Assembly (NCBI GenBank): GCA_003971905.1
Contig: RSEE01000022.1
Coordinates: 682,001 to 746,000, forward strand
DNA from: Moniliella sp. 'wahieum'
Taxonomy: Eukaryota > Basidiomycota > Moniliellomycetes > Moniliellales > Moniliellaceae
Direction: 5' to 3'
Length of the DNA: 64,000 nt
Both the position numbers and the translations under genes were made by a program. The notes beneath the pieces are model-generated. The model saw only the letters and a list, made by a program, of their open reading frames with translations. It searched no databases and was not told the DNA's origin. Of the stretch, positions 10,876 through 59,800 are shown in pieces; position 1 is the first letter of the stretch, and each line of letters starts with the position of its first letter.

Positions 10876-10898
10876 TCACATGTCACATGTCACATGTC
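10876..10898. repeat. (TCACATG)3 heptamer cluster
   Basis: Three exact 7-bp units, each holding the self-complementary hexamer ACATGT plus one spacer C. A two-unit copy in inverted phase (ACATGTG) lies at 11157-11174. Confidence 0.9.
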
Positions 10899-11033
10899 CC
10901 ACGCCGACGCTCTGCCAGCGTCGCTGGTCGCATGGCTGCGCCGTGCCTGGCTGCCTGGCCTGTGCTGTGTCGCCCACGTACCGACTCCAGTGCACCACGG
11001 CAGGACGGATGAGCGCATGGGCCTCCTCGACCT

Positions 11034-11054
11034 CAGTCACTAGTCACTAGTCAT
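11034..11054. repeat. (CACTAGT)n heptamer cluster
   Basis: ACTAGT palindromes spaced exactly 7 bp apart and flanked by partial units. The same unit recurs at 50868, 58441 and 59739. Confidence 0.85.
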
Positions 11055-11573
11055 CCAATCCATCAACCCTCGCAGGCCAGAGGGAGAACATCAAACGTCG
11101 AGGGGCGAACGGCGAACGCCGACGTCTGGACCCAAGATGCCGAAGACACGTGATCGTGTGACATGTGACATGTGGCATGGGATCGATGATCAAGCAATCG
11201 ATGATGCTGGGGAGACAGCGCGCATGGGCGGGATCTGCGATCGGAGGATCTGAGATCGCAGTCTGAGATCGGACAGTAGAGCTGGCACAAGCATCCAGAA
11301 GGGGGGCTGTGTGTAGTTGGTGCATGATCACCATGCATCATGCATGATGCAGCCGCGTGGGTACGTAGCGCTCAGGCAAAGCACACAATTGATTTGGGGC
11401 TGGAAGACTGCTGCAGTGGGAGCGTCCCGCGACTAGTGAGCTAGTGCCACTGAGGGTCCTGAGGCCTGAGTGTGACATGCGGAAACAGTGGCCTGGTGGC
11501 TGGTACAGTGACCTGTGACTTGATGCGGTCGAGACCCCCCAGACCCTCCCACTGGCCCACCACTCTATGTCCC

Positions 11574-11615
11574 ACGTCTACGTCCATGTCCACGTCCATG
11601 TCCATGTCCATGTCC
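11574..11615. repeat. (CCATGT)n hexanucleotide repeat
   Basis: About seven 6-bp units of CCATGT/CCACGT in a row, upstream of nothing recognisable. Confidence 0.85.
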
Positions 11616-11681
11616 AGTGTATTGACCAGCATCTTTTGAGCAGAATTATTAATTAGTCAGAATCCTTGGTCCTAGCGGACT

Positions 11682-12191
11682 TTCAACGTTCAACGTTGGC
11701 GCAGGTTTGCGTTCGCTTTCGGCTTCTCGGAACTGCAATTCGGCGCAGCGTGTAAGCGTAAGCCGTAGGTACTAGGTGCGAACGCTGTGAGAAAACTGTA
11801 CGGCACCAGGGCACCAGGGCATCGGGGTTTCTCCTTCCTTCTTTGTGCTTGTACGTTAGTGTGTCGTGGTTAGCGTCCGAGTACAACAATCGATCCAAGA
11901 GCGTTTTGGTATTGAAGTTTGAAGCTTGAAGTACAACCGTTAATGTGGCACATACGTCCTCCTCAAAAACGTCCTTTTCAGTTCGACGAAGCTTGAAGCA
12001 ACTCGCAAAGCAACCTCCCCTCAGATCGAGCTCGGGGATACAATGGGGTGGCAAGAGCAGGAAAGGGACCTGAACGTACTGAACGTGTAATGAGCGGGAG
12101 CGGTGGACGCCTGCACTTTGAAAGCCTAGTTTCGGAACAACTAAGGAACATAGCGAACATTCATATCCAACGTCCAACGTCCAACGTTGAA
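11682..12191. repeat. Segment bounded by inverted AACGTT heptamer arrays
   Basis: The left end (11682-11698) is CAACGTT repeated; the right end (12166-12191) is CCAACGT repeated three times and then TTGAA, which on the other strand reads as the left end does. The 0.5 kb between them is open on the minus strand for 177 codons (11683-12216) with no recognised domain. It could be a small inverted-repeat element or merely two of the local heptamer clusters. Confidence 0.4.
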
Positions 12192-14194
12192 CCTTGAAAC
12201 TTGAAGTTCCAGCCACATGTCGCGGTTATGTTGCCATCGATCGGGAGGTGGCACACCGTGGGAGCAGAATGCGGATGGATGTCGCATCGGGGTGGTGCGT
12301 CGCCAGCAGCCAGCCAGACCAGCCCAGTCATTAATTCGGACCCGCCATATGTTGATTCTACTCCCGGACCCAACAAGTACGCAAGAAGGAAGCAGCTTCC
12401 CGCTGTTCCTCAGTACTCTTATTCTCTGCGCAGCAAACCATTACAGAGTACAAGAGAGTACATTGGTCATGGGCATTATGCGTATTCCGGGGAAGAGTGA
12501 CGAATAAGTGGTAGCCAGGAGGTGTTGACATTTTGGGGGTTCAAGTTGAACGTTGGACGTTTTTTTGAATGTGTTGGACGTTGGCATGTTGACAAAGCCA
12601 GAATCTGACCCTGTGTGGGAATTGGGTTACATGGTGATGTGTGTGGATGTGGTAGAGGGAGGGGAGCGAGGGGAGTGTGTATGGAGTTAGGTCCCAGAGA
12701 CTTAACCTCCGCAATCCCAACACTAACTCTTGTAACACACCCGGAAGCTAACTGAAGAAGTCCTACTAAGTAGCCAACAACGCGGCAACACATTACGTGT
12801 GCATGTTACATTTTGGATCCATTTTAAGAACAAAACCCCCAACCCAAATCCTTTTTCTCTCCCTTTTCTTCTGCGCAGGTACACAAAGGGCCCAAGCGAA
12901 GAGTGCAACTCCGGGACCGAATCACTGTGGTATAAACAATTCCAAGTTGGCAGTGGTCATGCCGGTCATGTGTCTCCCTCCAAAGGGAGAAAGAAAAGGA
13001 TGTCCAAGAAGAATTTTTGGTCATTTTCCGTCTTCTCACATCTCATAGCTCATCCTGGCACACATCCCGCACCTTCCAACTACCTGTGCGGATCCAAACG
13101 GGCAGGGGAAATAGACTGGATGGGGGATGTATAGGTTCAACACATTCAAGTCGAACGTTCGTTGAACCGTGAGGCCTTGAGGCCGGAGGAGGCACAACAC
13201 AGTGACTTGTGGACACCCCTTCCGCACCTGTGTAGTTGACTAACAACTGGGAGAGAATTTATACCGGCACGTGTGGGAGGCGTTTGACTGCTGCGGCTAG
13301 TTTTATACCTCTGCTGCTAGACGTTCAGAGGCTAACGGAGATACCCCCATAACACCCACATCGATTCGTGTTCATATGCGCACGAGAAGCGCAAGCTGTA
13401 GCTATAACCAAGCCATACAATCATCATGCTGGAAGGCGGAAAAGGCAGTTGGGCGGGGAGAGAAAGGTGAGGAGAGGACAGTTAGGAGAGAGGACAGTTA
13501 CACTTAATGAGTCTCATCCCTCTTTTTGAGCCATTTATGCCAAAGGAGGAGGAGAATGGAGGGTGTGGTTCTGAGGAGAGATACTGGAGGCTACGAGAAG
13601 CTGGCAGGACCTTATATAGCCGAGGGTACCGGGGAACAGAGGGAACCTCCGGGTCGATAAGAGGGGTGATGTCTATATCATGCAGACTGGTGTGACGGGG
13701 GCATCCACCCAACACCTATACGTCCTTTTTATACCCACACGTATACACCCCCATCCCACACCTGCATGAAGGCCACCTTCATATACCTTTTGCACACTTC
13801 TGCAGCCCAAACCACAGAAGGAAGGGACCAACACGATTTGGTTGGGGCCATTCGTTAGCCGTTTCTTGGCTGAGTGGAAGATGGATGTAAACTGAATACG
13901 TGGGAAATGGCACCTGACATTATCTCGCGGTCGGAGGATTAAAAATAAAAGCCCTCTGGACGGTCTCTGTGTCTCCCTGTCTATTCGTTCCCTAGCTGGT
14001 TGGTACTATCGAGAGGTGCAAAGAACACAGAGACCAAAGGGCTTATACGGGCGTGTGCATCTTTAGAGTGATGTGTGGGCAGATTTCTGAAAAGCGGCTG
14101 TGCCAACGAAAGAAACAAAAAAGTGGCTCAAAGAGGGGTTCAAAGAGCATGATCATTCCCATATGTATATTGGCCTACAGATCTCGAGTCCACA

Positions 14195-14300
14195 CTGCTC
14201 GTATGAAAAAAAGGCTTTGCATGGCTTTCTGCTCGTATGAAAAAAAGGCTTTGCATGGCTTTCTGCTCGTATGAAAAAAAGGCTTGCATGGCTTTTTTTT
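14195..14300. repeat. 34-bp tandem repeat, three copies
   Basis: Copies start at 14195, 14229 and 14263, each beginning CTGCTCGTATG and containing an A7 run and GGCTTTGCATGG. The third copy has lost one T, and its tail runs into T8. Not part of a recognised gene. Confidence 0.9.
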
Positions 14301-15103
14301 CCAAAGTCAACTCAGTAACATCCGGTATGAAGGGGATTAATCCGGTCGTGACATGTCCCCAATTGAAGAAGTCAGTCGCAATTGAGCTAGAATAGGACAG
14401 AGAGATGGGAATGCGAAAGGTCTGTTGTGGCTTGAAGGGGATTGCTAGCTTGCCTAAGTATTGTTGCTTGTCTCGTTGCCAAGGCCACATCTTTTCTCCA
14501 AATCCGTAACGTCGTTCCGCTCTTTGCTATTTCCGGAATCACCTTACACACCTTGGAGACTGTACTAAGTATGCTCATCGAAGAACGTGTGCTCTTCTGT
14601 GGCATCCACGGCGCAACAACCAGCATAATGAGAGTCCTCGACAACATTGCCTTACTATTAGGGTCTGTGGTTACTGACAGGCACAGGTGGCCGCCGTTAG
14701 ACGTTCCTACGGCGGATGCAGGCAAAGGCAAGAGAGAGACCATGGCAAGGACCGTGGCAATTGGCCAACGCGAATGCGACCGAAGATGGCAGAAGAACCG
14801 GGTGGTGCCATTTGCCCCACACGGTCTGGGCTGCCCCCAGCCGCAGCGCGGCAGCACGACGCAGCGACAGTGTCTCACGAAGACGCAGGCACGGGGGCAG
14901 TATGACGTCAGGTTGGGAGCCATTCTTCTGGCACGGCCCCTCCAGCTCCCACGGCGGCAGTGTCCCGTAGCCGGAAGGTGGCGTGGCCTGGCCACGTCCG
15001 GGGGGGTACTTGAACCGCACCCGGCTTCTTCCTCAAGCGGCGCCTTCCCCCCACCACCATCTATCCCCACCAGGACGACCAGCGAACTGCTACTTTCCGC
15101 CCA

Positions 15104-18527: not shown

Positions 18528-19817
<1,290 letters not shown>

Positions 19818-20575
19818 GAGAGCAGAAGAAGGAGAGGGTGTGGTGGGGCGCAGGACAGAGACGCGGACGAGCAATGGCGATGGCGGGCGGGGCCGAGCGG
19901 GCGCGGGGGCTTCCCAGTGCAAATGTTCAACTGAAGACAACGACCACGTAAGCGTCGGCTTACGTACCCCGAGGCTAGAGTTTGCTAGGCCAGTCATCCA
20001 TCGCCGGATCATCCATCCATCGCGTCATCTATCCATTGGGGATGCTGCGCTCCTGCCTCCGTCGGCCGTTTCCTCTCCCCCCACTCCCGTATTCTCACCC
20101 CCCACCACTGCCCCGCGTCGCCCCCGCTTGGCGAGCAGGCATTCCCTGTCCGCTGTGTCCGCTTAGTAGTGTTGTGGGGTGGTGTAGTGTACTTCGTACT
20201 TATGGGCTGAAAAGTTAAATTACGCGCTCGCCTCGCTCACGGGGGCCAGGCGGAACGCGCGCCCTCATTCCGCCCTGCAAGGGGCCGCTCAGTGATGTCA
20301 TCTGTGATGCCATCGTCACACGGAAGCCGCCGCCACACTGCCCCGGTGCGGGAGCGTGCCAGTGGGGTGACAGCCGCGCTGGCTCGCGCCACACCCACGC
20401 GTGACGCGTGACGTTCCCCGGCTTCAGTCCTGGCGTCGCGTCTGGCCGCCGCGTTTTTTTTTGCCTCTGCTCCACCACCACCACCACCACCACCCTCAGC
20501 ACCACCACCGCCACCGCCAGCCCACGCCGACGTGCCCTGCTTGCTGCGCCACGCTCCCCCTCGACGCTGTCCAGA
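19818..20575. promoter_or_regulatory. Divergent promoter region shared by CK2 alpha and the BET protein
   Basis: 758 bp separate two start codons pointing away from each other. It contains a T8 run followed by an ACC/CAC-rich stretch at 20470-20520 just upstream of the BET start. No TATA box was assigned. The sharing is inferred from gene orientation only. Confidence 0.5.
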
Positions 20576-25280: not shown

Positions 25281-26439
25281 AAGACCCGGTCGCGATTCTA
25301 GCTGCGCCAACCGCGGGCTGATCAATGAAGGCTGGAACGATTATAGTATTGCTTCTCAGGTCAGAACGCTTGCGTTTTGGTACTGCCACATATTATTGGA
25401 TCGAGCACCACGATGCACCATGGGGAAAATGGCGAAGCTGAATGGCGAATTAATCAATGTCCAACGTCAAGGGACTGCGTTGGTTGAGAACAAGCTGGCA
25501 CAGCCTAGTGCATAATGCATAAGAACTAATAGCTATGTTGGCTCAAGCTTCAAGGATAGTAGACCTCATCGACTGATCGATCGCCTTGGACAAGGCTCGA
25601 GACGCTCGTCCGCGCGAAGGTGTCGTGAAGCTTGTTGGCTTGAAATTGACATACTGATGGGCTCGATTGGCGATCATTAATCATTAATTAGTCGATCATT
25701 AATCGCAATTAATCCAGTCGATCACCAAGCGCGAATATCCAACACGCGTCGCACGCACGGATCGCCTCAAACAGCCCCTTGATAAGTCCCTCTTCTCAGG
25801 GGCTTCTGGCTCACATGTCACACTTGTCGAAAAAGCAAAACAAGGAATCGCGAAAACATACCAATGATCAATAGATCATGCACTGCGCACTTAAGCACTT
25901 GCCCCTCCTGCACTGACGCTGAAGCGTCAGGGGCTTATCGACATCGTGGTCCAGACAATCGTTGCACCGATGGTGGTAAAACCCACAGATTGGGCTAGAG
26001 AGAGAAGGTTGGGCCAGAAAAACATAGAGAGAGGTAAGGCCTAAGGCCGGTAATCGCAGCAGTGGCAGGAGCAGCAGACATCCCGCAAACCCACAGCCTA
26101 CAGTTGGAGCGCAGTCGCCTCTACTCCTTTCGGCCTATTGGCCCCTTGCAGCTGGCTTCACACACACACGGACGTTGCTCAGGGCGGTCGATCGCAGCTT
26201 TTACAAAAAAAAGAGATAGAGAGAGATCGAGGGGTACGCTTCCACCACCAGCACTTCCCTCTCCCTCTCAGCTTCCACTTCTCGCCACCACCTCACCATT
26301 TTCCCTTCCATTCGTTTCATCCACGCTCCCAGTCTACCTCTTCATCCCGCTTCATCTCTGTCTTCGATATACCCTCTGCATCCCCCCTCCCAGTCGTCCG
26401 TGCGCCCGCTACACCACGGCATTTCATCCATTTGCCTTC
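25281..26439. other. Intergenic region between NPY1 and the R3HCC1-like gene
   Basis: 1.16 kb. Holds an ATTAATC/GATCATTAATC reiteration at 25672-25705, a hairpin at 25901-25934, and a pyrimidine-rich run at 26240-26400 (CTCTCC, TTCC) that probably is the core promoter or leader of the next gene. Confidence 0.45.
25901..25934. repeat. Inverted repeat with CTGACGCT/AGCGTCAG arms
   Basis: A perfect 8-bp stem (25913-25920 with 25923-25930) around a GA loop, flanked by GCCCCT on the left and a complementary AGGGGC on the right. Position is about 630 bp beyond the NPY1 stop; function unknown. Confidence 0.75.
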
Positions 26440-39265: not shown

Positions 39266-39735
39266 TTTCTCCCCATGCCAGGCAGTATGCGGGTCTTGTT
39301 TTGCAGGGCTGTGCGCTCGCTGAGCGTCCACCCGGAGCCCGAAGGCTGAGATTACCGTACGGTTACCAGTGACCGGTGAACAGTTAACGTTAAACGTACT
39401 TTAACATGCTTCGTGCGAGCGACCCTGCCTCGCACGGGCTTCAGCCGCCTCGCGTCGCAGGGCAGCACAGCATGCTCTCCAGCACCATGCTTCTGTTTTG
39501 GGGGTGATGCAGGATGCAGGATGATCGATGATCGCTGAAACAGCGGCCCCAGGCCTCAATTTGATGTGTACAGTCAATTCACGCTCCACAAATCTCAGCT
39601 CGATCGATCCCTGGGAATCCGACCCCTGGTGGAGAAGCGACCACACAGCTGCATCCCTTTTAGGCGAACTGCATGCCCCCGCCCACCACCTTTCCTGCCA
39701 TCATCTTTCTCTTGAACCAGTACTGCCACTCTACA

Positions 39736-45605: not shown

Positions 45606-45797
45606 CTTTTTTTCACTTTTTGCCATTCCCAACGCAAATGACCAAAAATCGCCTTTCAATCTTTTTCAAGTCTTCAATGGAAACGGCAGGTGGGTGAGAA
45701 GCTCAACAAACAAAGCATTTATCGTGTCGCTGGTAATGTTGGCGGATGATTTTACAAATGCAATGGGTCCACAAACACAGGTTAGTTGGGAAAAAAA

Positions 45798-45887: not shown

Positions 45888-46270
45888 GCTGTATCGTTCG
45901 CTGCGGAGTTGTTTAATTTAACCCTAGAGGTGGTGGTTGTCTTGTTTCTTCGTATGTGAAAGCTAAACTATGGCCTGTATTGGAATAGCGAACAGGAAAC
46001 ATTAGGAAGAGGTCTAGAGTGATTGTTGGGTACAAGAAGCCATCCTGACACAACCACGTCCGCCGTGCCACTCTTTCATCGACGTTCACCTGGTTCTCTA
46101 TCGTGCCGAGGGCCAGAGAATGGACATTTACCCCACCTGCAATTATGGCCAAAAGGGTTGCACCGATTGCCCGAGCTTCTGTGGCAATTCTTTTCGCAAG
46201 CTCGTCGAAGCTCTCAGCCTCGGCCACGCCAACGACCAGCCCAGCGCCGCCCGGATGATGCGGATCGTGA
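45888..46270. other. Upstream region of the MRH4-like gene
   Basis: 383 bp. A frame open from 46023 may contain an earlier start of the helicase; otherwise nothing was seen. Confidence 0.35.
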
Positions 46271-48598
46271 GTGCCCGCGCACTTGCGCTGCCCCTCGCGT
46301 GTCCCTCTGCGCGCCAGCGAGTGCCCGAAGACTCCATGTGTACCCTGCATGTCTGAACCGGCGATGCGCCCTAGGCCCATGGGCAACGCCTGCCGCGGAA
46401 AGCCAGCTCGACCTCGGTACCGTCGCCGCTACTGTGGTGGCCTCCCTCGCACGGGAAGACTGACTGTTGCGTCTGCCGTTCCTTCTGATGCGATACCCTC
46501 ACACGATGGGTTTCGGTGCCTACCCATCGACAGGGGCCTCGTCGAGAACCTGGTTCGGCAACTTACTGCCCGCAATGCCCTTCGTCTCGATACCAACAAT
46601 AGCACTGAACCGTTGAAGCCCTCCTCCGTGCAGCGTGCTGCCTACCGACACTTTTTTACCGAGCGTGAATCGTTCAGGCATCGCAAGAGCCTTCCTTGGG
46701 CGTCTCTGTTCCGCCGCGAACCTGGCTTTCTCTCCCCATGCTCCGGGCACGTCGACCCTGATTGGGGGCGAAAACCGGCGGGGGCAAAACACTTGCGTAT
46801 TTGCTTCCCTTGCTGCAACGATTGTTGGCAACGCCGATTGATTCTGAGAAGAGTACGGAGGTGCTCCAAACGGGCGATCGGGGGATGGAGATGGAGAGGA
46901 AGAGGAAGGTGAAGAGGAATGGACCGAGGAAGAAATGGCCTCGTTTGACCCTACGTCCGGCGAAGAGGACATGGGGATCTTGTCGGGTGGTCGGATGAGG
47001 AAGTGGAAGACTTGGAAGCGTTTATGAAGGCCAAGGCCAAGGCCCAGTTCATTCCCAAAGCCAGCGATGTCAGGGGGGGATTCGAATCCGATTCGGAGGC
47101 TGCGATGCGCGAACGAGAGGCGGTCGCATTGAAAGAGGAGTTAAATGCGTGGAATCCCAAGACCAAGAAAGAGCCTGACTTTGTTGTTTTGCCGCGGAGC
47201 GTCATCCTTGCCCCGACGCATGAACTGGCGCGGCAAATCGAGGCCAACGTCAAATCCTTAGCACGGAAGGTGCCGCTCCGTACTCTCTGTACCAGCCGAG
47301 CCAAGTGGATCGAAACGCTGAGGAAGGACGTGCGAAAGATGAAGGAGGGAAATGGGGCGAGGTGCGGCCAGTGGATGTGCTGGTCAGCACCCCGGCCGGC
47401 TACTGGACTTGGTCACTTCGCCAACCGAGAGCCGAGAAGTTCAAGGCACTCCATGAAAAGCATACCCGCTCCCTCGATGTGCTGGCAGCCGAGCAACTTG
47501 AGAAGCAGTACGAAAAGGCACGAAAGAATCAACTTATCTCCCTTGATGGAGTAAAGGCATTTGTGTGTGATGAGGCGGACACGTTGTGGGACGTGTACCA
47601 CTACGAGAGCACACGTCAACTTGTCCGGATGGTGTACGATGACCGTATTCAAGCCTGGCGAGAAGGGGGGGACTTTCTACCCCTCGCTCCGGCCGATGTC
47701 ATTCATGTTACGGCATCGGTCACACCGCCTTTAAGAAACAGCTGACCAACCGGTTCCCAGCGACGGTCAATGTGTTGTCCAACTTCCTTCACCAGCTGCC
47801 CTCCACGGTGCGGGTTAAGTATGTTCCTACCCTACCCACCTTCAACGATGCGTTTGTCAACCAAGTGGCGGAGGCACTCGATTCCGATCCTACTGGCCGG
47901 TCCAAAGTCCTGGTCGTAACAGAAAAACGCGAGTCGGTCCAGTGGGCGGCCAAAGTGCTCGACCGGGTCAAGATTCCGTATGTAACCTAAATTGCCCTTG
48001 GTGTGATTCGAGCCAAACTAACGTTCGAGTGCAGGAACTGTTCTTTGGTGAGCGAGTCGCGCGAATACAGTATCACCAGCAACGAGGATATGGCCGGGTT
48101 TGTTCTCGATCCGCGGCGGATGACGCTGGATGGCGAAACAGGTTCCGACGCGGGTGCTATGAAACGGAAATCTTCTCCCCTGCTCCCAAAAGAAGAAGAA
48201 GGAAGAACCTCGTGTTCTCATCACCACTTCTCACCTAACTCGAGGCATTGACTTTTCGCCTTTGGTGACCCACGTGATTGTGCCCGACTCGAAGCCCAAG
48301 GCATTGGCCAAAATTGTGCCGACCATGTCGGAGCGACATGTGACGGACACGATGGAGCTCTTGCACCGTGCTGGCCGGGTGGGACGGGCGGGTGAGGGCC
48401 ACATTGGTGTTGCTGGACAAGGTGGATGTTGAGACTGGCCAACCGTTGATCAGCAAGCAAGATCGCGCCCGTGGTACCTCCTCGGTCCGGTTCCAGAAAG
48501 GTACGTACTATCCGGCCGACCAAGCTGAGCGATTGGGAGAAAAAGGTGCACCGGCCTCAAAAAGACTGGACAAGCTACAAGAGACGAAAGTGATGTGA
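46271..48598 (+). CDS. MRH4: DEAD-box RNA helicase, Mrh4-like (mitochondrial)
   Basis: Mrh4 is needed for assembly of the mitochondrial large ribosomal subunit. Seen in order: CLPIDRGLVENLVRQL; motif I GAKTGGGKTLAYLLPLLQRL; an acidic insertion; motif Ia ILAPTHELARQIEANV; VDVLVSTPAGYW; motif II CDEADTLWD; motif III-like HVTASVTP; QLPSTVRVKYVP; KVLVVTEKRESVQWAAKVL; motif V LTRGIDFSPLVTHVIVPDS; and motif VI HRAGRVGRAGEG. DEADTL followed by this spacing, and TAS in place of SAT, fit Mrh4. The intron is 47978-48034 (57 nt, GTATGT...CAG). Frame changes occur near 46730, 46920, 47300, 47370, 47720, 48180 and 48390. The start is uncertain: 46271 is the first ATG of the frame, 46349 (MSEPAM) another; both give a basic N terminus compatible with import. 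Confidence 0.8.
47978..48034 (+). other. Intron in the MRH4-like gene
   Basis: 57 nt with GTATGT donor, ACTAAC branch-like sequence and CAG acceptor; joins RVKIP to NCSLVSESREYSIT. Confidence 0.8.
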
Positions 48599-49955
48599 AC
48601 GCATTGCATCGGGTTGGTTCTTCCCTCCGTACTTGCTTGCATACACACGCACACACACTTGTTATGTACACTACTTCAACACCACATTGGACCATCTATA
48701 TCTTGTTTTGGCAGGCTCCACGGAGCCCATGCTGGTGTTAGAGTAGAAGGAGGGAAAGTATAAACAGTATGGGTACACTATAATAAAACAAGAGTCCGTA
48801 GTCCTTACAGTAAGAGGTTGTAAGTCTTGGTCCGAGAAGTCGGGAGCTAGGACCTTGGAGGGGGGGTGGATCAGGATGATCAGTTACTGCATGGGGGCTC
48901 GAAACCCCGAGCCGACAGGGGAGGGAGGAGGCAACGTGCGTCCAGATGCGGAGGCTTCCATTCGCTGGGTGCATCTGGCCACCATGGGTCCAGCCAGGCG
49001 GAAATTGAGTCGGCCAGCCCGGCCATTGGCTGCCCACCCGAGGAGGGCGTGTGATGGACTTGATTGCGGGCGAGTGCGGGGGGTGGAGAGGAGAGGATGC
49101 GTTTCTTGAGGGGGGAGACGCGGACGCGGAGCCGGTGCGCTGTGAAAGGAGCCGACGGAGGAGGCAGAAGAGACTGTTGTAGTGGGAGAGGAGGCCGATG
49201 AGGCCTCGGAAGCAGAGGGAGTGGGGGGGGGTCGCAAGCCATCGGTGGAAGGTGGACGAGACGCGGCGGACTCAGAGCCCGAAAGGCAGCAGGCGGCTGG
49301 GGCGGTTTGCGGCTGAGCTCAGTCCAGCCCATTGCAGGGGGGGAGGAGAGGTGATGTTCGTGCTGGGTGCCACTGCACAGAAAGCCACGGCGCTCGCAGG
49401 AAAAGCAGCGGTAGGTGGTGGATGCGCCTCGGCTGGAGTACACTGGATGGGCCCGAGGTGGGTTATTGTCGACCGTGGGGGCGAGGGGCAGGTCGCAGGG
49501 GGCGTGTTGGCGCAGCAAGGAGGCGGTCTGGTGTGTGCGCTGCATGATGCCAGCGCTCGGGCGGTGGTGGTTGGGAGGCAGAAGTGGCTAGGGGCCTACG
49601 AGCAGTACAGATGAATGGCGGACGGAAGCGGGGATGAGAGGGCCCAAGGGCGCGGCAGCGAGAGGTGCGATATGGTCTGGATAACCCACAGCTGACAGAT
49701 CACGGTGATCGGACGGGTGAGGGTGTGGCGGTCGCTTCGGCTTCGTGGGCGCTGCGCAGCACGGGGAGCAGTGTACGCTCGGAAAGGCGCGATGGGGAAC
49801 CGGCAATGGCCAGTGGCCAGCTGAGTGTGGCGGGGGCGGGGGCGTGCAACCGGCACGCGGTGACTACGGGACTTGCGGGCAAGTGTCGCTCTTGGCCGGA
49901 CGGAGGTGTCGAGGCCGGAGAGGGGCAGGGGTGCGCTGCGGATGGATGACTGGCT

Positions 49956-49972
49956 CATCGATCATCGATCAT
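49956..49972. repeat. (ATCGATC)n heptamer cluster
   Basis: Two 7-bp units with the self-complementary core ATCGAT, followed by ATCATG. Confidence 0.8.
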
Positions 49973-50867
49973 GTGTATTGCCGACGGGCGGGCCAGCGCT
50001 AAAAGGAAATCTTCCGGAGCTGGGTTTTGGTGGTTCAGCTTCGGCGCTGAGCCGCCCAGGTGAGCGCTGAGAAGTTCAACGCATTCAGCAGGCTGCGTTC
50101 GCTCTCGCTCTACTCCGCTGCCAGCCCGGTGAATTCACCGGTGCCCCGTGGTTCGGAGCAGCGGGGAGCGCGGGAGAGCAGGGGAGAGCGGCCCCTCCGA
50201 CTCGGTGGAATCTGGGATGTGACGCTGACGCCCAGGCCAAGATTACGATTCTGGCCACTGGCCAGCCACTTGGAGCTTGGCTAGCCACTAGCAGCTGGCT
50301 TTTTATGCACCGACAACGGCTCAACGGGTCGTCAATCGCCGATGCCCGAATTAATGACCGATGACGGTCATCGTCATCCGACATCCAGTCATCGAGTCAT
50401 CAGGCTTCAAGCAACAAGCTTCAAGTCTTCGGTTTTCAGCAAGCAATCTGTCACGATTGCACGGTAATCGAGAACCGATCTAGGCCTAATCATTCATCAA
50501 CGACCCTTGATTGCATCAGTCAGCTACCCAGCACCGAGCGACCAACAGCAACCGGCCTCCCCCACAGGTGTGTGTTCCAATTTCGGTCGCCATCCCCTCC
50601 GACATGGCACGCGGAGCCCCGTGGCGCGTGGCGGGGCCTGGCTGGCCCCAGTTTGGCCGTCTGCGTGACCTTGTGTGGCCAGGCCTTGCGCACGGCCCAG
50701 GCACACACACACGGCTCAGGAGGGTAACCGGTAAGCTGTAAGAAAGCTTTGATATGCCAGGTGTCAGATGTCAGAAACCAGCCTGAGGCCTGGGCCTGAT
50801 GGTTCCCTTTGGGGCCGCGCACACGACGCTCAAAACGCCAAGCGCTCTCAGGGTATAGTCAGTACAG

Positions 50868-50900
50868 TCACTAGTCACTAGTCAGTACTCAGTACGCTCA
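50868..50900. repeat. (CACTAGT)n and (AGTACTC)n heptamer clusters
   Basis: ACTAGT at 7-bp spacing, immediately followed by AGTACT at 7-bp spacing: two different palindromic hexamers back to back. Confidence 0.8.
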
Positions 50901-51779
50901 CTGCTCCAGTCTGCTCCAGTACTTCTCTGGTGGTGTGGGGGAACTCCGTGGACTTGCTTCGAGTTGCTACGTGCTCTTTTACTTCCCTACAAACAACGGG
51001 ATGCAATGGTGCCCCAGATCTGAGCGATGATCGTTGATCGATGATTCATTATCTCTATGCTCGATGGTCAACAAAATCTCAGTGTCAGCTGCATCTCGCG
51101 TATCATAATGATAACTCAGTCCTCAGGCGCCTCATCAGCCTGCCTCACAAGCCCCCAGACCCCAGGCCTCAGGGGGGACTCCAGGGGTACTCAGGCTTGA
51201 GGACGGACTCAGTTATAAAGCTTTGACAAGTCGTTGTGTCACATGTAATAGCTAGCAACCCGCGCCGGTGATCGGGACAACAGGTCACTTCGGCCCGCTT
51301 GCGGCCTCCCGCTTCCGTATCGATATCTTCCGGGTTGTATAATAAGAAGTAACATGTAAGCCAACTGACCTGCCCACCCCCGGCAGTCCCATCAGAGATC
51401 CCACCCTTCTCAGATCCCCCCCTTCTCAGACTCATATCTCACCGGTCACCGCGCTAAGCCCGTCGGGCCATTTCACCTTCGCTAGCTCAGAAGGGGGCCA
51501 GACCTTATTAGACCTTAGACCTTAGGATGGCCACGTGTAACTCATCAGTATATGCTTCAGTACAGTAAAGTATGCCAGGAAACCCCTATCACATATCACA
51601 TGGGACGCCGTTTTCTATACTGAGTTTTGGTCGCTACTATACTGCGCATCGTACCATGCATACCGCGTAACACACAACGGGCTGTTAGTTGGTGGGCATT
51701 TTGGTGACGGACCCATACAGCGCAAGAATGCGGCACAGCTGAGCGCTGGTATGTGCATGAGCACCCTCCAGACCGTCGC

Positions 51780-51805
51780 TACGCGTTACGTGTTACGCGT
51801 TACGT
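51780..51805. repeat. (GTTACGY)3 heptamer cluster
   Basis: Three 7-bp units with cores ACGCGT and ACGTGT. Confidence 0.85.
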
Positions 51806-53817
51806 CCGTCGCCACAAAAGATGGGAACAGAGCGGGTCTGGAGTACGCGTTCTCCGTCTGTGGTCCGCAAGTATTTTGATTACCGGTATAGTGTTCCCGG
51901 GACACACCCGCACTGCCCTGCCCCTCCTTCTGTCATGCATCATGGGCGGGCGGCGACCTGGAACCCCATCCCGGGTGTAGGGGTACTTTCCCCTGAAGGA
52001 GAGGGTCCCCCTCACGGTTTACCGAGCTTGAAGCTTGAATGCTATTGGCGGATCCGAACGAACAGAGCCTAGAGACGAGAGGTGACCGGTGAGGCGTCAC
52101 GATTGGGGCGTCGGCTGGGGTGGCAAGGCAAAGTAAGGCTGTACGTGTTAAGGAGGGAGAGAAGAAGATGGAGACGATAACAGAGTGGGTACGTGGGCTG
52201 GCCAAGTGACCATATGGTCTGTACGAGATCACCATAATCAGACAGTGTATATGCACCGGAACGAGCAGGGCTATAGCCCGCATGTAGACGCAGAATCTTG
52301 AACGGTTTTGGCTAGGAGGTCGGCCCATACCAAGACTGAAGGTGGGATAGGCCCTGTCCTGTCCCCGAACAACTCAACTATTGTAGGATGGTAGCGAGAT
52401 CCGTACAGAGGAGATCGTAAACTAGACGGAGATCGACGATACTAGTAAGGATGCCGAGACGAAAGGATTCAGGAAGATTCAGAGGTGGTTGCGGAAGCAG
52501 GTCGGTGGGACTGCGGGTGAACTGGGTAGTAACGCGGGTATTGCCTGGTGGGTCAAAAGGATGTATAGTATTCGCAAGGAGTTGTTGGTACAAAATGACC
52601 CGCTCTAGGGGGAAGAATATAGAACAAAAGGCGTACAGTATACCGATATGGGACCGTTAAGGCACCCAGATACAATGTTGAAGGAAGAGGAAGGAACAAA
52701 GGCGAATGATTAATGACTGTCAACAAGAGCACAAACCAAATAGGGAAAGGTCTGGGAAATTAAAGATCCCCACGTTCAGAGTTGGGACAGCAACTTACTA
52801 GTAAAACACGAAAAAGGCCCAAAATATAATGGGCAGGTTCTCCGCCCCTTCCCGCAGCAGCAACGTCAAAAGCACCAGGGGAGAACCTCACAAAATGAGA
52901 ACGAGACACTCGGATCAGGTCGATCAAGAAACAGACATAATACACTGACATCTCGATTCGGCAGCTCAACGTTGAGCTGATTTGCTTTGAAGACCAAAGA
53001 CGAAATACTTGAAGTAGGATAAAATCACAGTTGAGTTGTTGGGACTTGAAGCCCAACACTCGCATAGACCTCCTCAGCCGTACGGAAGGGCCTCGATCTT
53101 GGTCGCACAGATCATAGGAAACATGCTCCAATTAGGCTCAACGGAGTAGATGAGTCGTTTAAATAGAGGCGAGCCACAGACTGTAGTGACCCATACTACC
53201 TTCCCTCCTCTCCTTCTTGGCTGTTCCTGCTACTATTTATATAGTATAGTTGGTGTGTGGGCGATTTGGCCACAAGCCAGCAAGCAAGCGGCAGCGCCCG
53301 AGGCAGAGAGAAAGAAGGATATAGGGTGTAGTACGAATCACTGATGTGACGATCCGTGTTCATCTGTCGCCATTTACACGTGTGCGCCAATACATCAACT
53401 TCATCAACACAGGCGAATGGAAGAACAATCACATCGGGCACCCTTCTGATTCAGACGTACTACTACTAAATATACTGCTACCACTGATGTATAATCCCAC
53501 GTTGATCCAATTTGTGCAACAACGGCCGCGCCTAGACCGAAGCCACCGGCATGTCCCCAATTACATCAGAGGCAGGGGGCGAAACAGACACGGTTGAGGA
53601 CTGTGGGACTCAGGTACCAACTGGCTATATACGGACTGGATGAAGAGTGGATAGATAGAATGCATGGAGAGTGCAAGATGGTTGCTGGCATATGGCTGTA
53701 GATTGGATCAATACCCAGGATACTCGATGGGCCACGATGCACGCGGCTCGACGATGAATAGATCAATCGTCATCGCGTCATCTCAGCCGTCCTTCAACTC
53801 CTTTTTCTTCAAGTTCT

Positions 53818-54213
53818 TCTCTTCTGCTTCTGCTTCTGCTTCTGCTTCTGCTTCTGCTTCTGCTTCTGCTGCTTCTGCTTCTGCTTCTGCTTCTGCTTCT
53901 GCTTCTGCTTCTGCTTCTGCTTCTGCTTCTGCTTCTGCTTCTGCTTCTGCTTCTGCTTCTGCTTCTGCTTCTGCTTCTGCTTCTGCTTGCTTCTGCTTCT
54001 TCTGCTTCTGCTTCTGCTTCTGCTTCTGCTTCTGCTTCTGCTTCTGCTTCTGCTTCTGCTTCTGCTTCTGCTTTGCTTCTGCTTTGCTTCTGCTTCTGCT
54101 TCTGCTTCTGCTTCTGCTTCTGCTTCTGCTTCTGCTTCTGCTTCTGCTTTGCTTCTGCTTCTGCTTCTGCTTCTGCTTCTGCTTCTGCTTCTGCTTCTGC
54201 TTCTGCTTCTGCT
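53818..54213. repeat. (TTCTGC)n hexanucleotide array, about 66 units
   Basis: Nearly pure TTCTGC for about 400 bp with a handful of 3-5 base phase slips (near 53868, 53985, 54000, 54070, 54080 and 54150). Every frame is open on both strands, giving Ser-Ala, Leu-Leu and Cys-Phe on + and Glu-Ala, Gln-Lys and Ser-Arg on -, so the long frames over it are uninformative. Confidence 0.97.
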
Positions 54214-54403
54214 TTTTCTCGTCTCGCATGGTACCTTGTTTCGCATGGTACCTTGCACCCTTAACCCGTAAAGTACTTCTACTGTGACAGTTCCGTGACT
54301 TGCCAGTGACTAGTGTGGTTCTCCTCCACACTCACGTCCACACCAATCTCTACCACCTTGTCCTCACCTACTTCCCTCCTCACCTCCTCACCTCCTCACC
54401 TCC

Positions 54404-56896
54404 TCACCTCCTTCCCTCCTCACCTGCACCCGCCATCGGACCAAAATAGGAGCCCAACAAGCCCAACCCCACCTCGATCCCTGACGAGGACAACCACGGA
54501 GCCCACTCGGCCCAACTGTCGCCTACGCCTACCGCTACCCCATCCGGGGAAGCCAAAGTAGACGTGGCAGAAGCAGAAGTGGAAGCATCCCAACCCGTTG
54601 GTGGAGCCAGCATGTCCAACGGGAACAGGAGCGGGGCCAGTCCTGCCTCGTCCGGTCCCTCCTCTGGCCCTTCGTCCGGCACGGCCGAGAACAAGTTGGC
54701 GGGGTCCAACGCTGCCTCGTCCGACCCGGACCACAAGCGGTCCAGCTCCAACAGTGGGTCAGGCAAGCCGATCGGTATCCCACTGGCGGCGGTAGTACTG
54801 CCGGCAGTAGTACTGGCCACGGTACTTGCGTCGGTGGGAGTCGGGATTGTCGACCTGGCGGTCCGCGTGGTGGGATGGTGGTCGTCATGGCTCCCGCTCG
54901 AAGGAGTCTCGACGGTCCAATTCAACGTCCCATTCAACGTCGAACCCAGAGCCGGGAGGATGGGACTGAGAGGAGGGGGCGCCTGTGTTGCGTCCCCCCG
55001 CCCGGGGGTGGGACGAACGAGAGGGAAGGAAGAGGTGGGGCTGGTGGGGTAGGTGGGATATGTGCGGTAGGGTGAGAAGCGGAAGCGGACGCGCGTTGGG
55101 CCCGGCGGACGAGGGAGCGCAGCGCGTCCACCAATCCATCCTTCGATCCTGGCGGCCGGGAGAATGTGAAGCGCATGAATCAAGGTGGAAGCAATGGTGG
55201 GTAAGTGAACAACGGTAGAGGAGGAGGGGGGTTCCGTCGTGTGTTCCCTCTCCACGGGCGGACGGAGCATGGCACGGACAAAGTGACTCGAATGGTCTTG
55301 CAACGACGTCATCTCCTTTCCACGCCTGCCGTCGTAGTGCCCATGGGCGCTTCGGTACGTTCAAGAGCCATCATTCGCACCACATACAGGACGAACGCAG
55401 CCATAATGCGTACAAATGGGGGTACATATCGGGGTCGGTTTTGGGGCTTGATCAGGACTTGGGCAAGGTGGGCCATGCGTTGCGCGCTCAGTTGAACCTC
55501 GGCATCCACTTTGGCCAACGCCACCGACCCTTGAGAAGCGGGGTAGCATGAAACGTGACCCACAGCAGCAAAACGATCCATTGGCACTCGACCAGAAAAT
55601 TGATCTTTTCGTCCAAGCGCAGCACTAGGTCATCCGTCATGGCCAGACCCGCCGGGTCGGGTGGTGGAGCAGAATGTTCGTCGCCTCCTTCCGGTCCAGG
55701 CGCGCGACCAAGTCGAGATCAACCTCCATCTTGATCGGAAGGGCACGTGCTTCGTCCACGAGGGCCAGTGCGGTGGTCACATCCAACTTACCCCCTCGCG
55801 CCGCTGGCGACAAGGCCTGCGACAAATCGACCGACCATCTCCCCCAGCATGAGCCACGGTCGACTTCGTTCGCCCAAATTAGCCCAGCCAACGACCATCC
55901 CACCTGTTCGTCCGCTATGCGAAACATGACGCCCGTCGATGCGCTCCGCAGCGCATCAAACACCCACAACGTCCAAAACAACACCGCCCGTCGTTCCGTC
56001 TCGAGGGGCGAGAAGGACTTGTGAGGCAAGCTAGGCTCATTGAGGTGATGGTACAGAGCGAATTCGACAGGGAAGCACTTATCCCGAGGATGGAGGTGGA
56101 GGGGCGAGCGAACATAGTGGGCATACGCTCCCTTGCCATGCTGCTTCCTCCGCCCACGCACGATCCAGGATGAAAATAGCTTCGACCGCATCCGTCTCCC
56201 TCCTCGAGCACAGTGGAGTCGGTCGCCAGGGCATGCGCACGCTATGTAAGCGTTCGGACCAGGGTTTGAGGTGGGGCGAGACAGAGGCCCTGGGCGGCGA
56301 CTGCAAGAATCAAGATTGGCTGTAGGGGCGCCGGATCGACCGGATCGACGCTGTCTCGCTCCGGAGGGGAGGGGGGCGGAGGGCGCATGGCAAGGTGGTA
56401 GCGTGCATAAAGTACGATTGGGGCATGCTCAGGGGTACACACGTGCCACCGCGCCAAAGTACTGGTCAATGCACGCGTCGAGCACGGGACGTGTCAGGCC
56501 CGGCACGCCGCACAGGCTGGCACAACCTGGAGAGGAAGGGGGGAGCTGTGGTTCCTCGGACGGAGTAGGATCAGCGAGGGGGAGGGCGTGACGAGTTCTT
56601 GCTGGAGCAGGGCCATGATGCGTTTGCCGCGCTTGTGGCGCCCTTGGGCAGCGGCGGGCAGGGTGGCACGGGGCGGGGGGGAGGAGGCGGAGGCGGAGGG
56701 GGTATGGGCGGCGGCTGGCGGGGCGCGGACGGGTGGGGAGGGCGGCGGCGGCGGCGGGGCTGGCGCTGGGGGACGGCAGGGGATGCCGAGCGAGTGGCAG
56801 AACTGGCAGCTGGGCGGGGGCGGTGGGGGTGGTGCTGCTGGCGGGCAGGCACGCACTTGACTTTGCGTCGCGGCAGGCAACACAGACGGTGCGCAT
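54404..56896 (-). CDS. Zn2Cys6 fungal transcription factor
   Basis: Sequence-specific regulator of the Gal4 class; target unknown. Start MRTVCVACR; with a frame change this runs into RRKVKC, then a Pro-rich spacer, then CQFCHSLGIPC: the six cysteines C-x2-C-x6-C ... C-x2-C-x6-C. The second loop is unusually long because of the Pro run. The fungal-specific regulatory domain follows: DACIDQYFGAVARVYP, LQPILILAVAAQGL, FPVEFALYHHLNEP, ETERRAVLFWTLWVFDALR and GVMFRIADEQVGW, then VDLDLVARLDRKEATN. The C-terminal third (MTSLQDHSSHFVRAMLRPP onward) is Ser/Thr/Pro- and Asp/Glu-rich, likely an activation region. Frame breaks or introns near 56860, 56470, 56220, 55640 and 55310 were not resolved. About 800 residues. 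Confidence 0.75.
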
Positions 56897-57061
56897 GGCG
56901 GAGCACGCGCAGGGCAACGCGAGAGCCAGCGAGGATGGTCGATGGGGGCGCAGCCGAACAGCGTGGTGGCGGGCCGCATCCAAGCGCGCTGCAATCGAGC
57001 GCGCGCACCAGCCGCCCGCGGGGTAGGCCTTAGGCTTATGGTGCCCGCAGCAATGCGTGGC

Positions 57062-57110
57062 GCGGGGTGCGCCGCAGCTCCGACGGCCTGACAGCTGCGG
57101 CGCACCCCGC
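57062..57110. repeat. Perfect 18-bp inverted repeat
   Basis: Left arm 57062-57079 (GCGGGGTGCGCCGCAGCT), 13-nt loop, right arm 57093-57110, exactly complementary. It lies about 170-210 bp upstream of the Zn2Cys6 start codon, in promoter position. It could be an operator for a dimeric factor, or a hairpin. Confidence 0.9.
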
Positions 57111-57589
57111 CCACGGCGCCCCCCCGGCACAGCGCCACCCTCGCTCGTTCGCGGCGTTTCGTTCAAATTTCATGCCCCCAGGGCCACAGGGGCAACCCTA
57201 GCACCCCCACACATCGCCGCCAGCCAGCGCCCCAAGCAAAAAAACTATATAACACAGCCCTTGCAGCACGCGCACCGGTAAGGCTACCCCAGTCCGAGCA
57301 CGCTCCTGTTGGGACGAGCCGTCAATGACGTTCCTTTCTCTTGGCCAAGCCTTCTACGCGCTCACCTCGCCTTCCTCCCCCCGCCCCCAGGTTGGTCTAA
57401 CCGACAACGCCGCCTCCTTCTGGGAGTAGATGAGCTGCCTGCTGCCCAACAAGGCGTGAGCATTGGGTCAGCCAAATTAAATCCGACAGTTCTGGTGGAC
57501 AGCCCAAACACCAGAGAGCGATCCCCAGTCCTACGTGTCTGTGCGCCAATCGTCGCCTCTTGCCCAGGTGAATCGGTTGCCACCGCGTG

Positions 57590-58210
57590 GTCTCACCCAA
57601 TTGTCAATATTTCCTTTGCGACGATAGATATAGTCGTCCCGTGCTGGGGTTTATCTTTCCTTTCTATGGTTGCCCGTGCGGCAACGCCCTGTTCTCCCTG
57701 CATGTCCCATCAGTTCTTCCTCTATTGTGTTGTTTCCCTATCTATAAGCAATGGTTCGTAGTTTTCCTCCACGGTCCATTGGCGTCCTCCTCTCTGTTCT
57801 CGCCAATTGATCAACCCAGTACATAGATGACTTCTCTCTCTTATCAGGTTTTGCTCCTCCGCTCCTCGACCTCGCCTCCAGCATGGTATCCCGCTTTTAG
57901 CTTCTCAGCCAGCCAAGTCGCATGTGCCCCCCTCGCGCCACGTCGAAACCAATGTTACCTGATGGTTATGAGCCAGAAGTGGTCGTAGTCTGTGGGCATT
58001 CGATAACATGCTCTTGTTGAGCCTCGGGTGGCTCGTGCTTTGGCCAATGTCCCTTCAGCTCCTCCCAGGCCTGAGTTCCGTGTTTTCGCTCTCCTGTTTT
58101 TTCCTTGTTCCGCATCTTACCCCCTGGTGGCGACTCGCTCCTTGATTCCTCTGTAGGCGTTGCTGGTTGGCTTAGACCACCACCACCACCAGTGCGATGC
58201 ATCATGCATC
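57590..58210 (-). repeat. Dispersed repeat family, copy D (most complete)
   Basis: Minus orientation. It begins (58205) with fragment F, whose minus frame 57966-58205 reads ESRSESPPGGKMRNKEKTGE and looks coding; it then passes directly into the A/C-type block with TTGGCTGGCTGAGAAGCT, TGTACTGGGTTGATCAATTGG, GACGCCAATGGACCGTGG and CGAACCATTG. A run GAGGGGGGCAC at about 57930 could be a polypurine tract. Confidence 0.7.
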
Positions 58211-58440
58211 AGTCTCATCAGCTCCCCTGCCCAGCGTTTCCCTAGACTTAGTAACTGCCACCATTTACTCTGAACTATTAGCCCGACTGTTGATGAATAG
58301 CTCGCCAATCGAGCTCAAGCAAGAGCTTCAAGCTTCGCTTGAAGAGTCACTCTTCCGTGCGCTATACCAGGCTATACCCATGCCCCTGCCATAGCAGGCT
58401 ATATAGCGTGCGAGCCGAATAGGGACTGTAGCCAAGCTCA

Positions 58441-58540
58441 AGTGACTAGTGACTAGCTAGTGACTAGTGACTAGTGACTGTGACTCTTTAATGACTAGTT
58501 GACTAGTGACAAGGTGGCAAGCTAGTGACATGCTAGTGAC
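58441..58540. repeat. (GACTAGT)n heptamer cluster
   Basis: At least five ACTAGT cores at 7-bp steps with a few interruptions, then several TAGTGAC partial units. Confidence 0.9.
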
Positions 58541-58595
58541 ACACACGCACGTGCCATCATGCGTTCCAGTCACGGTCACATATGCGGGGGTGAAA

Positions 58596-58612
58596 TTGAA
58601 TATTGAATATTG
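58596..58612. repeat. (GAATATT)2 heptamer cluster
   Basis: AATATT palindromes 7 bp apart. Confidence 0.8.
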
Positions 58613-59234
58613 ACGATCGATGTAGAAGACACGGATGACACCAATGAACATTGGCTGACTATGCACGAAAGGGCTTCTTCCGTGTATAACGAGGGCGAAC
58701 GCCGTGAAAGGAGAGGGAAAATGATGGATGACGCTCAGTTGAGCGATGAGCCTCATCGCTGAGCCTCGATGCTCGCATGCCACACATGCATGTCACATGC
58801 CACACCAACGCCAAGGCGTGGCGCTGTCTTTCTTTTTCTCTCTTTTGCGAATGGTAAGAACGAAGTAGTGGTGCAGTGACCAGGTGAACCCCAATGTTGA
58901 GTTCAACTTGAACGCTCACCTACTCAACAAGGCAACTGCCTGCGAATGCGGTACAGTAGTAACTAGTAACAACTTTTTGAGGCAACAGCTCCGTACGACA
59001 AGGGCCATGTGACTAGTGCCAGGTGCCACCACGCGCCACGGGCCCACTTCGACGTTCGACGATCAAGTTGATCGAGGATCGAGGATCGATATCGAGGATC
59101 CCCGCATGCCGCGGCCGAGCCACACTTGCTTGTGCCTCCCGGCCCGCATCGGGTAAATGCAAGGAATTGCGCTGAAAACAGGAAGCTGGGCGAGGCAAGA
59201 CACCGCCGACATCCGACCCCGCTCGGTTGTTGCA

Positions 59235-59257
59235 ACATCATGCATCATGCATCATTG
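59235..59257. repeat. (ATGCATC)n heptamer cluster
   Basis: Core ATGCAT at 7-bp spacing. A relative at 59432-59465 mixes ATGCAT, ATGCGT and ACGCGT cores in the same 7-bp register. Confidence 0.85.
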
Positions 59258-59354
59258 ATCGACCATCTGCATCAGTACATGAGTATACTGAGACTCAGTT
59301 GAGTACCCTGCTCGTTCGATTCCATCCTTCACTGCCTTCATCCACTTCATCGAC

Positions 59355-59380
59355 GTGAACGTTGAACGTTGAACTTCAAC
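59355..59380. repeat. (GAACGTT)n heptamer cluster
   Basis: Two AACGTT cores at 7-bp spacing, then TTGAACTTCAA, itself a palindrome. Confidence 0.85.
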
Positions 59381-59697
59381 CTGGGCTCTCTGCCCGTCCA
59401 TCTGGGAAGAGAGAAGACAGGGCAGATTGGTCGCATCATGCATCATGCGTCACGCGTCATGCGAATGCCCTGTGCATGTGATTTCGAACCCCTCTCTCCT
59501 CCATCGCCCCTTCCCCCCACTGCCACCGGCCACACGCCTGTGCAGCTGTGCCATCGCTACTGTTTCCGATTATCGAGTACCCGCAGAAGCACCACCGCCA
59601 CCCCTGCCCCTCCCCCCCGCACATGCCAGCCCGCGTTTCACTTTTGCAACCGCCTGTGTGTGCTCGCGGGGACTAGCTCTACTAGGGCAATGCGAAC

Positions 59698-59800
59698 GAC
59701 TAGTTGCTACAGAACAAGTCACTAGTGGTGCGACTAGATGACTAGTGACCAGTGACTAGTGACTAGCTTGACTAGTAGTGATGGTGACTAGTGACGAGGA
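59698..59800. repeat. (GACTAGT)n heptamer cluster, second
   Basis: Several ACTAGT cores, some in exact 7-bp register (59739-59766), others separated by short unrelated bases. Confidence 0.85.

Follow-up and report, generated by a model that had tools for sequence, protein, structure and literature searches.

The window and its short arrays

The DNA considered here comes from the genome of Moniliella sp. 'wahieum' (GenBank assembly GCA_003971905.1, contig RSEE01000022.1 [C22], positions 682001 to 746000 of the forward strand; this whole 64-kb stretch is called the window) and carries numerous short arrays with a 7-bp period. The shortest of these arrays are 12-mers of the form NNTNA-N'N'-NNTNA, in which two copies of a 5-mer enclose the reverse complement of the dinucleotide with which the 5-mer begins; these 12-mers and their multiunit versions are the elements of this report. 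The window contains pieces of a carnitine acyltransferase, a class-III aminotransferase, a BET domain, an S10/plectin domain, and a SPRY domain. Fungal gene content is indicated by the fungal transcription factor domain PF04082, with 45 matches in the genome and none in 14 control genomes. Short tandemly repeated repetitive (STRR) sequences of cyanobacteria are heptamer direct repeats too; repeats of that type in a photosynthetic host were ruled out, the gene content being fungal and the chlorophyll-binding family PF00504 having no match. Four units of the plant-type telomere repeat gave no match, and no known RNA family reached the gathering threshold in the window.

Statistics were drawn from the window, from 25 ten-kb stretches of the largest contigs, taken at set positions (C1 to C20 at 200 kb and C1 to C5 at 800 kb; 250 kb), from second copies of some regions, and from whole-genome pattern counts over the assembly (69,493,810 bases in 223 contigs). 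Early tallies used the first 20 of the ten-kb stretches and later ones all 25, and gene overlap was judged from open frames, not gene models. A second genomic copy, diverged and rearranged, was found for each of the three regions for which one was sought: window positions 46567 to 64000 align in reverse to C20:509632-527000 (the extent of the compared sequence), positions 10500 to 12132 align in forward orientation to C20:493626-495198, and L001:2900-5500 aligns in reverse to C25:598468-601147. The window pairs are 96% identical in aligned columns over 17,869 positions. Such second copies suggest two nuclei, two haplotypes, or a hybrid.

A preliminary description, made from the letters of the window alone, had reported intergenic arrays of a changing palindromic hexamer plus one spacer base. 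Exact arrays do lie at or beside 10875, 11035, 11157, 11682, 49955, 50866, 50882, 58441, 58595, 59236, 59356, 59433, 59751, and 63043, as it had claimed; one that it placed at 51780 is present in imperfect form, with an exact core at 51793 to 51804. The following list covers 24 of the 42 elements of the window and two related arrays, with no strand assigned to any of them.

5854 to 5865: GATCA-TC-GATCA.
7316 to 7327: GGTAA-CC-GGTAA, with a TAA loop.
10876 to 10894: ACATGT-C array; 7 bp longer in the second copy, where the units are imperfect.
11035 to 11053: AGTCA(CTAGTCA)2, with two added units; it aligns poorly to the second copy.
11157 to 11170: TGTGACA array; the second copy is exactly 7 bp shorter.
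11644 to 11655: AATTA-TT-AATTA; the second copy has only AATTA (an exact 7-bp indel).
11683 to 11694: TCAAC-GT-TCAAC array, present as an array in both copies.
11766 to 11777: TAGGT-AC-TAGGT, with a CTA loop and hence not a TNA element; the second copy has TAGGT (an exact 7-bp indel).
11919 to 11931: TTGAAGCTTGAAG; the second copy lacks exactly 7 bp.
25674 to 25685: TCATT-AA-TCATT.
39520 to 39533: GATGATCGATGATC.
49955 to 49971: ATCGAT-C array, shared by both copies; an extra TGACTAG array lies just 5' of it in the second.
50866 to 50893: ACTAGT-C array fused to an AGTACT-C array, the TCA phase being held while the core changes; both copies.
51793 to 51804: TTACG-CG-TTACG.
52027 to 52038: CTTGA-AG-CTTGA, in both copies.
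58197 to 58211: ATGCAT-C array within a dispersed repeat; a single TGCATCA in the second copy, L030, L031, and L033.
58441 to 58479: ACTAGT-C arrays; the second copy is of different length.
58595 to 58613: ATTGA(ATATTGA)2; the second copy has ATTGA (an exact 14-bp indel).
58958 to 58969: AGTAA-CT-AGTAA, with a TAA loop.
59236 to 59254: CATCA(TGCATCA)2; the second copy is longer.
59356 to 59374: AACGTT-C array, shorter in the second copy.
59434 to 59459: adjacent elements CATCATGCATCATG and CGTCACGCGTCA, described earlier as one mixed array with a changing core; the core does differ, but across two neighboring elements.
59751 to 59764: ACTAGT-C array, with an ACTAGT-C-type array at the matching place of the second copy.
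63044 to 63055: CTTCA-AG-CTTCA, identical in both copies.

Architecture and abundance of the elements

Exact period-7 arrays (at least 14 bp) number 49 in the window, more than those of period 8 (31) and period 5 (20) and as many as those of period 6 (49), so that 7 exceeds two of its neighbors but is not the commonest period. Units made of a 6-bp palindrome plus one base account for 28 of these 49 arrays, compared with 10.5% of random window 7-mers, and for 48 of the 115 arrays in the 20 stretches elsewhere. Over the window and all 25 stretches the figure is 85 of 187, where 7-mers drawn 40 to 300 bp away give a local null of 13.2% (binomial P = 7 × 10⁻²⁷); the expected enrichment of palindromic cores thus survives correction. 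No clear palindrome enrichment was seen at periods 4 to 6 and 8 to 14 in the window and 20 stretches. The small counts at periods 9 (1 of 29 arrays in the window and 6 of 91 in the stretches, or 7/120; null, 3.4%), 11 (2 of 15 and 0 of 39, or 2/54; null, 1.2%), and 13 (0 of 7 and 2 of 38, or 2/45; null, 0.3%) leave room for a weak effect. Nor is there an excess of 6-bp palindromes in general (observed/expected, 0.98 for all and 1.13 for ANNNNT). In a 50-kb Escherichia coli control, three period-7 arrays were found, none of them palindromic.

The cores do vary, but not over any palindrome: the hexamer is ANNNNT in 79 of the 85 palindromic units, and ANNNNT with a C or G spacer in 67. Restated, TNA recurs every 7 bp and the four intervening bases are self-complementary. 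TNA-N4-TNA sequences with equal middle bases have a palindromic N4 in 112 of 222 cases for C, 110 of 217 for G, 18 of 42 for A, and 17 of 34 for T (43 to 51%), against only 2 to 9% in GNC, CNG, and ANT contexts with equal middle bases. The location between genes that had been ascribed to all sites holds approximately: 48 of the 209 palindromic A..T arrays of at least 12 bp lie mostly within open frames of 170 or more amino acids (aa), which make up 60% of the sequence, corresponding to a roughly five-fold lower density there. This depletion, together with the window clusters in noncoding DNA beside apparent 5' ends (10.9 to 12.2, 49.8 to 52.1, and 58.2 to 59.8 kb, as read from open frames), would suit selection, under which a dimeric regulator binds at the array clusters and these are kept in upstream regions for their function. 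We hold this to be quite improbable: 14 of the 16 ANNNNT cores occur as arrays of at least 14 bp in the first 264 kb (a tally by hand), whereas a binding protein would not need self-complementary inner four bases of any kind, and selection predicts neither the boundaries described next nor the exact 7-bp indels between copies. As a caution, a cluster of palindromic "motifs" in an upstream region does not necessarily consist of binding sites.

The boundaries of the arrays define the element. For A....T units with a C spacer, array starts fall at the two predicted phases in 47 of 66 cases at run length 5 (12 bp; uniform expectation, 2/7) and in 11 of 13 at run length 12 (19 bp, two added units); the two phases amount to one object, NNTNA-N'N'-NNTNA, read on two strands. 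We also scanned for S-L-S'-S-L arrangements with stems (S) of 2 to 4 and loops (L) of 1 to 8 bases, the middle part being the reverse complement of the stem or, as controls, its reversed or complemented form. The respective counts are 235, 121, and 103 for S=2,L=3 and 179, 70, and 84 for S=3,L=1; the latter excess consists of the same objects because the T:A pair is counted into the stem, and no other combination in this range shows a comparable excess. The E. coli control gave 2 reverse-complement, 8 reversed, and 2 complemented cases for S=2,L=3.

The architecture requires TNA. TNA loops are followed by the complementary dinucleotide in 228 cases versus 116 for all other dinucleotides, from which 7.7 would be expected; for non-TNA loops the counts are 196 versus 2,810, with 187 expected. 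Elements per 10,000 seeds amount to 114 for TGA, 106 for TCA, 59 for TAA, and 43 for TTA, followed by ATG (23). ATG and CAT loops are slightly raised (23 and 16), and their excess may in part represent the same arrays in another phase; these loop tallies scan both strands and may count longer arrays twice. Elements with one, two, and three units number 288, 54, and 8 (both strands). Next to 67 one- and two-unit elements, in-phase neighboring units predominate (T at +5 in 31 and A at +7 in 39), with C at +3 in 31 of the 67. Stem composition gives a mixed preference: outside frames of 120 or more aa, stems with two G/C, one, and none have 157 (21), 289 (82), and 111 (11) events per 10,000 seeds (event numbers in parentheses), which are too few to rely on.

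The elements are not peculiar to the window, with its 42 instances: 133 were recovered in the 250 kb elsewhere, in 22 of the 25 stretches. Extrapolation of the 0.53 per kb in these samples leads to about 37,000 elements per assembly, both copies together. Markov sequence controls for the 25 stretches yielded, as the mean of ten runs, 0.9 (order 3) and 7.8 (order 5) elements, and the 50 kb of E. coli none. Whole-genome counts of CTTGA-N(0-10)-CTTGA are 6,099 + 5,813 versus 677 + 637 for the reversed pattern, and those of GGTCA-N(0-10)-GGTCA are 2,997 + 2,946 versus 2,022 + 2,047; the non-TNA control CTGCA-N(0-10)-CTGCA is not flat either (2,412 + 2,371 versus 1,508 + 1,508). Gap composition was taken from the first 100 matches listed per pattern, all on contig C1: gap 2 occurs in 47 of these for CTTGA (AG in 37 of 47), in 22 for GGTCA (CC in 16 of 22), and in 7 for the control (AG in 1 of 7). 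The sequence TGACTAGTGACTAGTGACTAG is found 130 + 129 times in the genome and its reversed pattern not once. A composition bias or an assembly artifact is scarcely credible given this last control, the far lower Markov and E. coli values, and the arrays identical in both copies (11 of the 39 elements compared), which are most simply inherited, even though the evidence comes from one assembly.

Differences between genomic copies

Across the window pairs, 11 elements are identical, 4 are changed, 13 are present in the window only, and 11 are present in the other copy only. Turnover is thus fast, a further point against binding-site clusters kept by selection. Comparison of copies for gain and loss of units, as the preliminary description had proposed, uncovered exact 7-bp differences: in the window pairs and two short L001/C25 stretches, the architecture is seen in 9 of 17 exact 7-bp indels (TNA being present in 8 of these 9) and in one of four 14-bp indels, compared with 2 of 42 indels of lengths 5, 6, and 8 to 12 (Fisher P = 8 × 10⁻⁵). 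The size lock and the presence of many such 7-bp differences between two genomic copies are accordingly matters of observation, and insertion rather than loss would be the direction in most cases. In seven of the nine fitting 7-bp indels the short copy is a single NNTNA, mostly without a hexamer palindrome. Single 5-mers seen in short copies are AATTA, TAGGT, CTTCA, TCAAA, TCAAT, TCATC, and ATTGA. Examples of the change from short to long copy are AATTA to AATTATTAATTA, ATTGA to ATTGAATATTGAATATTGA, TCAAA to TCAAATTTCAAA, TCAAT to TCAATATTCAAT, and TCATC to TCATCGATCATC.

These short copies bear on what could have made the arrays. The suggestion of a mechanism that copies or binds palindromes was apt as far as templated copying goes, given the exact 7-bp indels and the fixed 5+2 architecture; copying or binding of a preexisting palindrome is unsupported because most short copies have none. 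The remark that simple slippage would not suffice has stood up well, because the middle two bases are the reverse complement of the first two of the 5-mer and need not be present beforehand. Ordinary replication slippage, perhaps hairpin stabilized as for CNG triplets and expanding chance repeats, could draw on the fact that the unit self-pairs with one mismatch per 7; multiunit arrays exist whose expansion after birth may well be slippage, and the nonpalindromic period-7 arrays (102 of 187) look like general background. As the source of the class we consider it unlikely, since slippage repeats existing sequence, whereas most short copies lack the complementary dinucleotide (e.g., AATTA to AATTA-TT-AATTA), and since hairpin-stabilized slippage should favor the odd periods 5, 9, and 11 too, at which no clear excess is found.

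Footprints of cut-and-paste transposons, i.e., a 5-bp target duplication NNTNA plus two P-nucleotides from hairpin opening, are a still weaker candidate and, in our judgment, very improbable. TNA is the 3-bp target of some PIF/Harbinger and IS5-type elements, and if P-nucleotides remained on a single flank, the product would be a pair of 5-bp direct repeats enclosing two bases that are palindromic to one of them. The P-nucleotides would, however, have to be confined to the NN side, with none at TNA, and tandem units would require repeated insertion at one spot. No element with NNTNA duplications was noticed, without a systematic search, and the one large indel (about 250 bp, near 58964) lacks such flanks by eye.

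At 58197, a single TGCATCA is present in the C20 copy and in three other copies of a dispersed repeat (L030, L031, and L033), and two are present in the window, so that from these sequences the array looks derived in the window copy. The end of this repeat occupies 58150 to 58204 and has at least 39 further scored matches in the genome beyond the window and its C20 copy. The repeat was also considered as the source of the arrays and rejected; it accounts for the background of one array, not for the class.

A probable recurrent insertion and its possible mechanism

We favor, as the probable explanation, the view that the arrays are products of one recurrent, size-locked, sequence-specific insertion mutation at NNTNA, a variant of short template switching. 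In it, 7 bp would be added at NNTNA (most often TGA or TCA, on either strand) to give NNTNA-N'N'-NNTNA. The path would begin at a nick, small gap, or break, where a 3' end ...NNTNA would fold back so that TNA forms a tiny loop; copying of NN would add two bases and complete a 7-nucleotide (nt) mini-hairpin; and the end would return to its own template five bases upstream and recopy NNTNA, replication then fixing the looped-out hairpin as a 7-bp insertion. Further rounds at the same TNA or its other side would produce longer arrays and core changes with the TNA phase held, and lengthening could proceed by such rounds or by later slippage. The palindrome, on the best reading, is a by-product of the insertion and not its target. 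The foldback path would account for the fixed 7, the ANNNNT palindrome, the two-sided use of TNA, and the phase-locked core changes (50866 to 50893 and 59434 to 59459). As judged from sequence comparison, the mutation rule appears well supported and the physical mechanism, with its foldback intermediate and whatever enzyme might act in it, more weakly so. A bolder version, tentative and on balance doubtful, is that this lineage has a dedicated, sequence-specific process (e.g., a TNA-specific nicking enzyme plus a gap-filling polymerase) that writes 7-bp mini-hairpins all over its noncoding DNA, by the tens of thousands in a genome, and so is now a main source of new upstream sequence.

Several observations weigh against the insertion reading. 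Base pairing alone leaves unexplained both the polarity of T..A versus G..C, C..G, and A..T and the stem of exactly 2; the polarity of T and A could be due to a Hoogsteen mini-loop closed by T:A. Some other loops (GGA, TAC, TGG, TCC, and ATG) have ratios of 3 to 4 on 6 to 23 events (6 to 11 for the first four). CTTGA-N4-CTTGA is also common (15 of the 100 matches listed), and the model does not explain it; neither does it predict the enrichment of self-complementary TGA-palindrome-TCA 10-mers (16 of 44, versus 5 of 59 for TCA-palindrome-TGA). Such 10-mers occur in the window at 5752 and 7202 and also in L007, L013, L021, L022, and others. Among the fitting indels, the change from TAGGT to TAGGTACTAGGT has the loop CTA and so lacks TNA, and for TGATTAATGATT the short copy is TGCTT rather than the seed TGATT. 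The 8 nonfitting 7-bp indels of the 17 comprise CATCATACATCA, one base off the rule; TCATCGGTCATCGGTCA, a plain duplication; and six without such form. The 17 are a biased sample because the compared stretches were picked for dense arrays, most of all L038/L039, the two short L001/C25 stretches (4 of 6 fitting, against 5 of 11 in the window pairs). The comparison being without an outgroup, gain and loss appear distinguishable only at 58197, where the window copy is also a net 18 bp shorter than the repeat. As for an enzyme, the foldback polymerase studied best is Pol theta; its stem-loop synthesis proceeds from two terminal pairs and is almost blocked when there is a single one (PMC11292364), and the family-A polymerase domain PF00476 had no match in a six-frame search of the whole genome that disregarded introns; the same search matched 10 of 14 control genomes, of which those named are all prokaryotic.

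The comparisons that follow are with parts of the cited reports. The insertion resembles short-range template switching in its transient switch and return and its reverse-complement insertion; the four-point model for that process includes return-before-switch events, 65.0% of gold-standard events lengthen the sequence, and copied fragments have a median of 12 nt and reach 128 (PMC7954356). In the present elements the inserted bases are likewise the reverse complement of nearby sequence (two bases per event), and one switch plus one return describes the nine 7-bp indels and, as two rounds, one 14-bp indel. Length and site are not variable here, only S=2,L=3 (with its alias S=3,L=1) and TNA being clearly enriched: 2 nt are copied across a 3-nt gap with a 5-nt step back and TNA is needed, unlike in that account, which has no fixed size or TNA site. 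The small inverted triplications of rad27/FEN1 mutants share the direct-inverted-direct order with a spacer, but their median is 148/160/148 bp, with a 30-bp spacer, a 6-bp junction, and an inverted part of at least 20 bp (PMC13334657); here the inverted part is 2 bp, the spacer is 3 bp, and the genome is not known to be mutant. Very short inverted insertions by local foldback are also reported at yeast breaks, where most are about 5 to 34 bp, the local events use an imperfect inverted microhomology of 10 bp and a loop of 41 nt, and the other end is captured by end joining (PMC11724301); of the two, only the present elements have the 7-bp ruler and TNA. With Pol theta (PMC11292364) the likeness is a 3' end that folds back, is extended, and is then usable in joining. 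The difference lies at the seed, where by sequence only the T:A of TNA could pair in the present elements. The heptamer direct repeat TAACTGA of Beggiatoaceae and others (PMC4679880) is similarly numerous and intergenic, the period alone being common to both; it has one fixed unit with no 6-bp palindrome in any rotation, whereas here the unit varies and the palindrome is the rule.

A literature search by titles and the beginnings of abstracts found no description of 7-bp NNTNA insertions, although absence is not provable in this way. The foldback/template-switch kind of event is known; as far as the parts used here go, the reports compared describe neither a size lock nor a TNA requirement nor such abundance in a natural genome. 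Their insertions come from repair mutants, cancers, induced breaks, and broad surveys, vary in size, and have no fixed site. Here, in a natural genome, one form seems to have both its size and its loop rule fixed and to be very frequent. The 12-bp signature allows counts in any genome and the prediction of exact insertion alleles, and it could point to the polymerase or nuclease responsible.

Some further observations concern neighboring repeats. Near 58964, about 250 bp present in the second copy (L034, reverse) and absent from the window lie at the AGTAACTAGTAA element, with no clear target duplication by eye. A three-copy tandem repeat of a 34-bp unit, the copies being nearly identical, occupies 14195 to 14295, and about 67 copies of the hexamer CTTCTG form an array of 399 bp from 53816 to 54214, of which the second copy matches only about 120 bp. 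The pattern list also included ordinary tandem arrays at C1:115645-115766 (GGTCATCCT, 9-bp unit) and C1:505577-505617 (GGTCAT, 6-bp unit).

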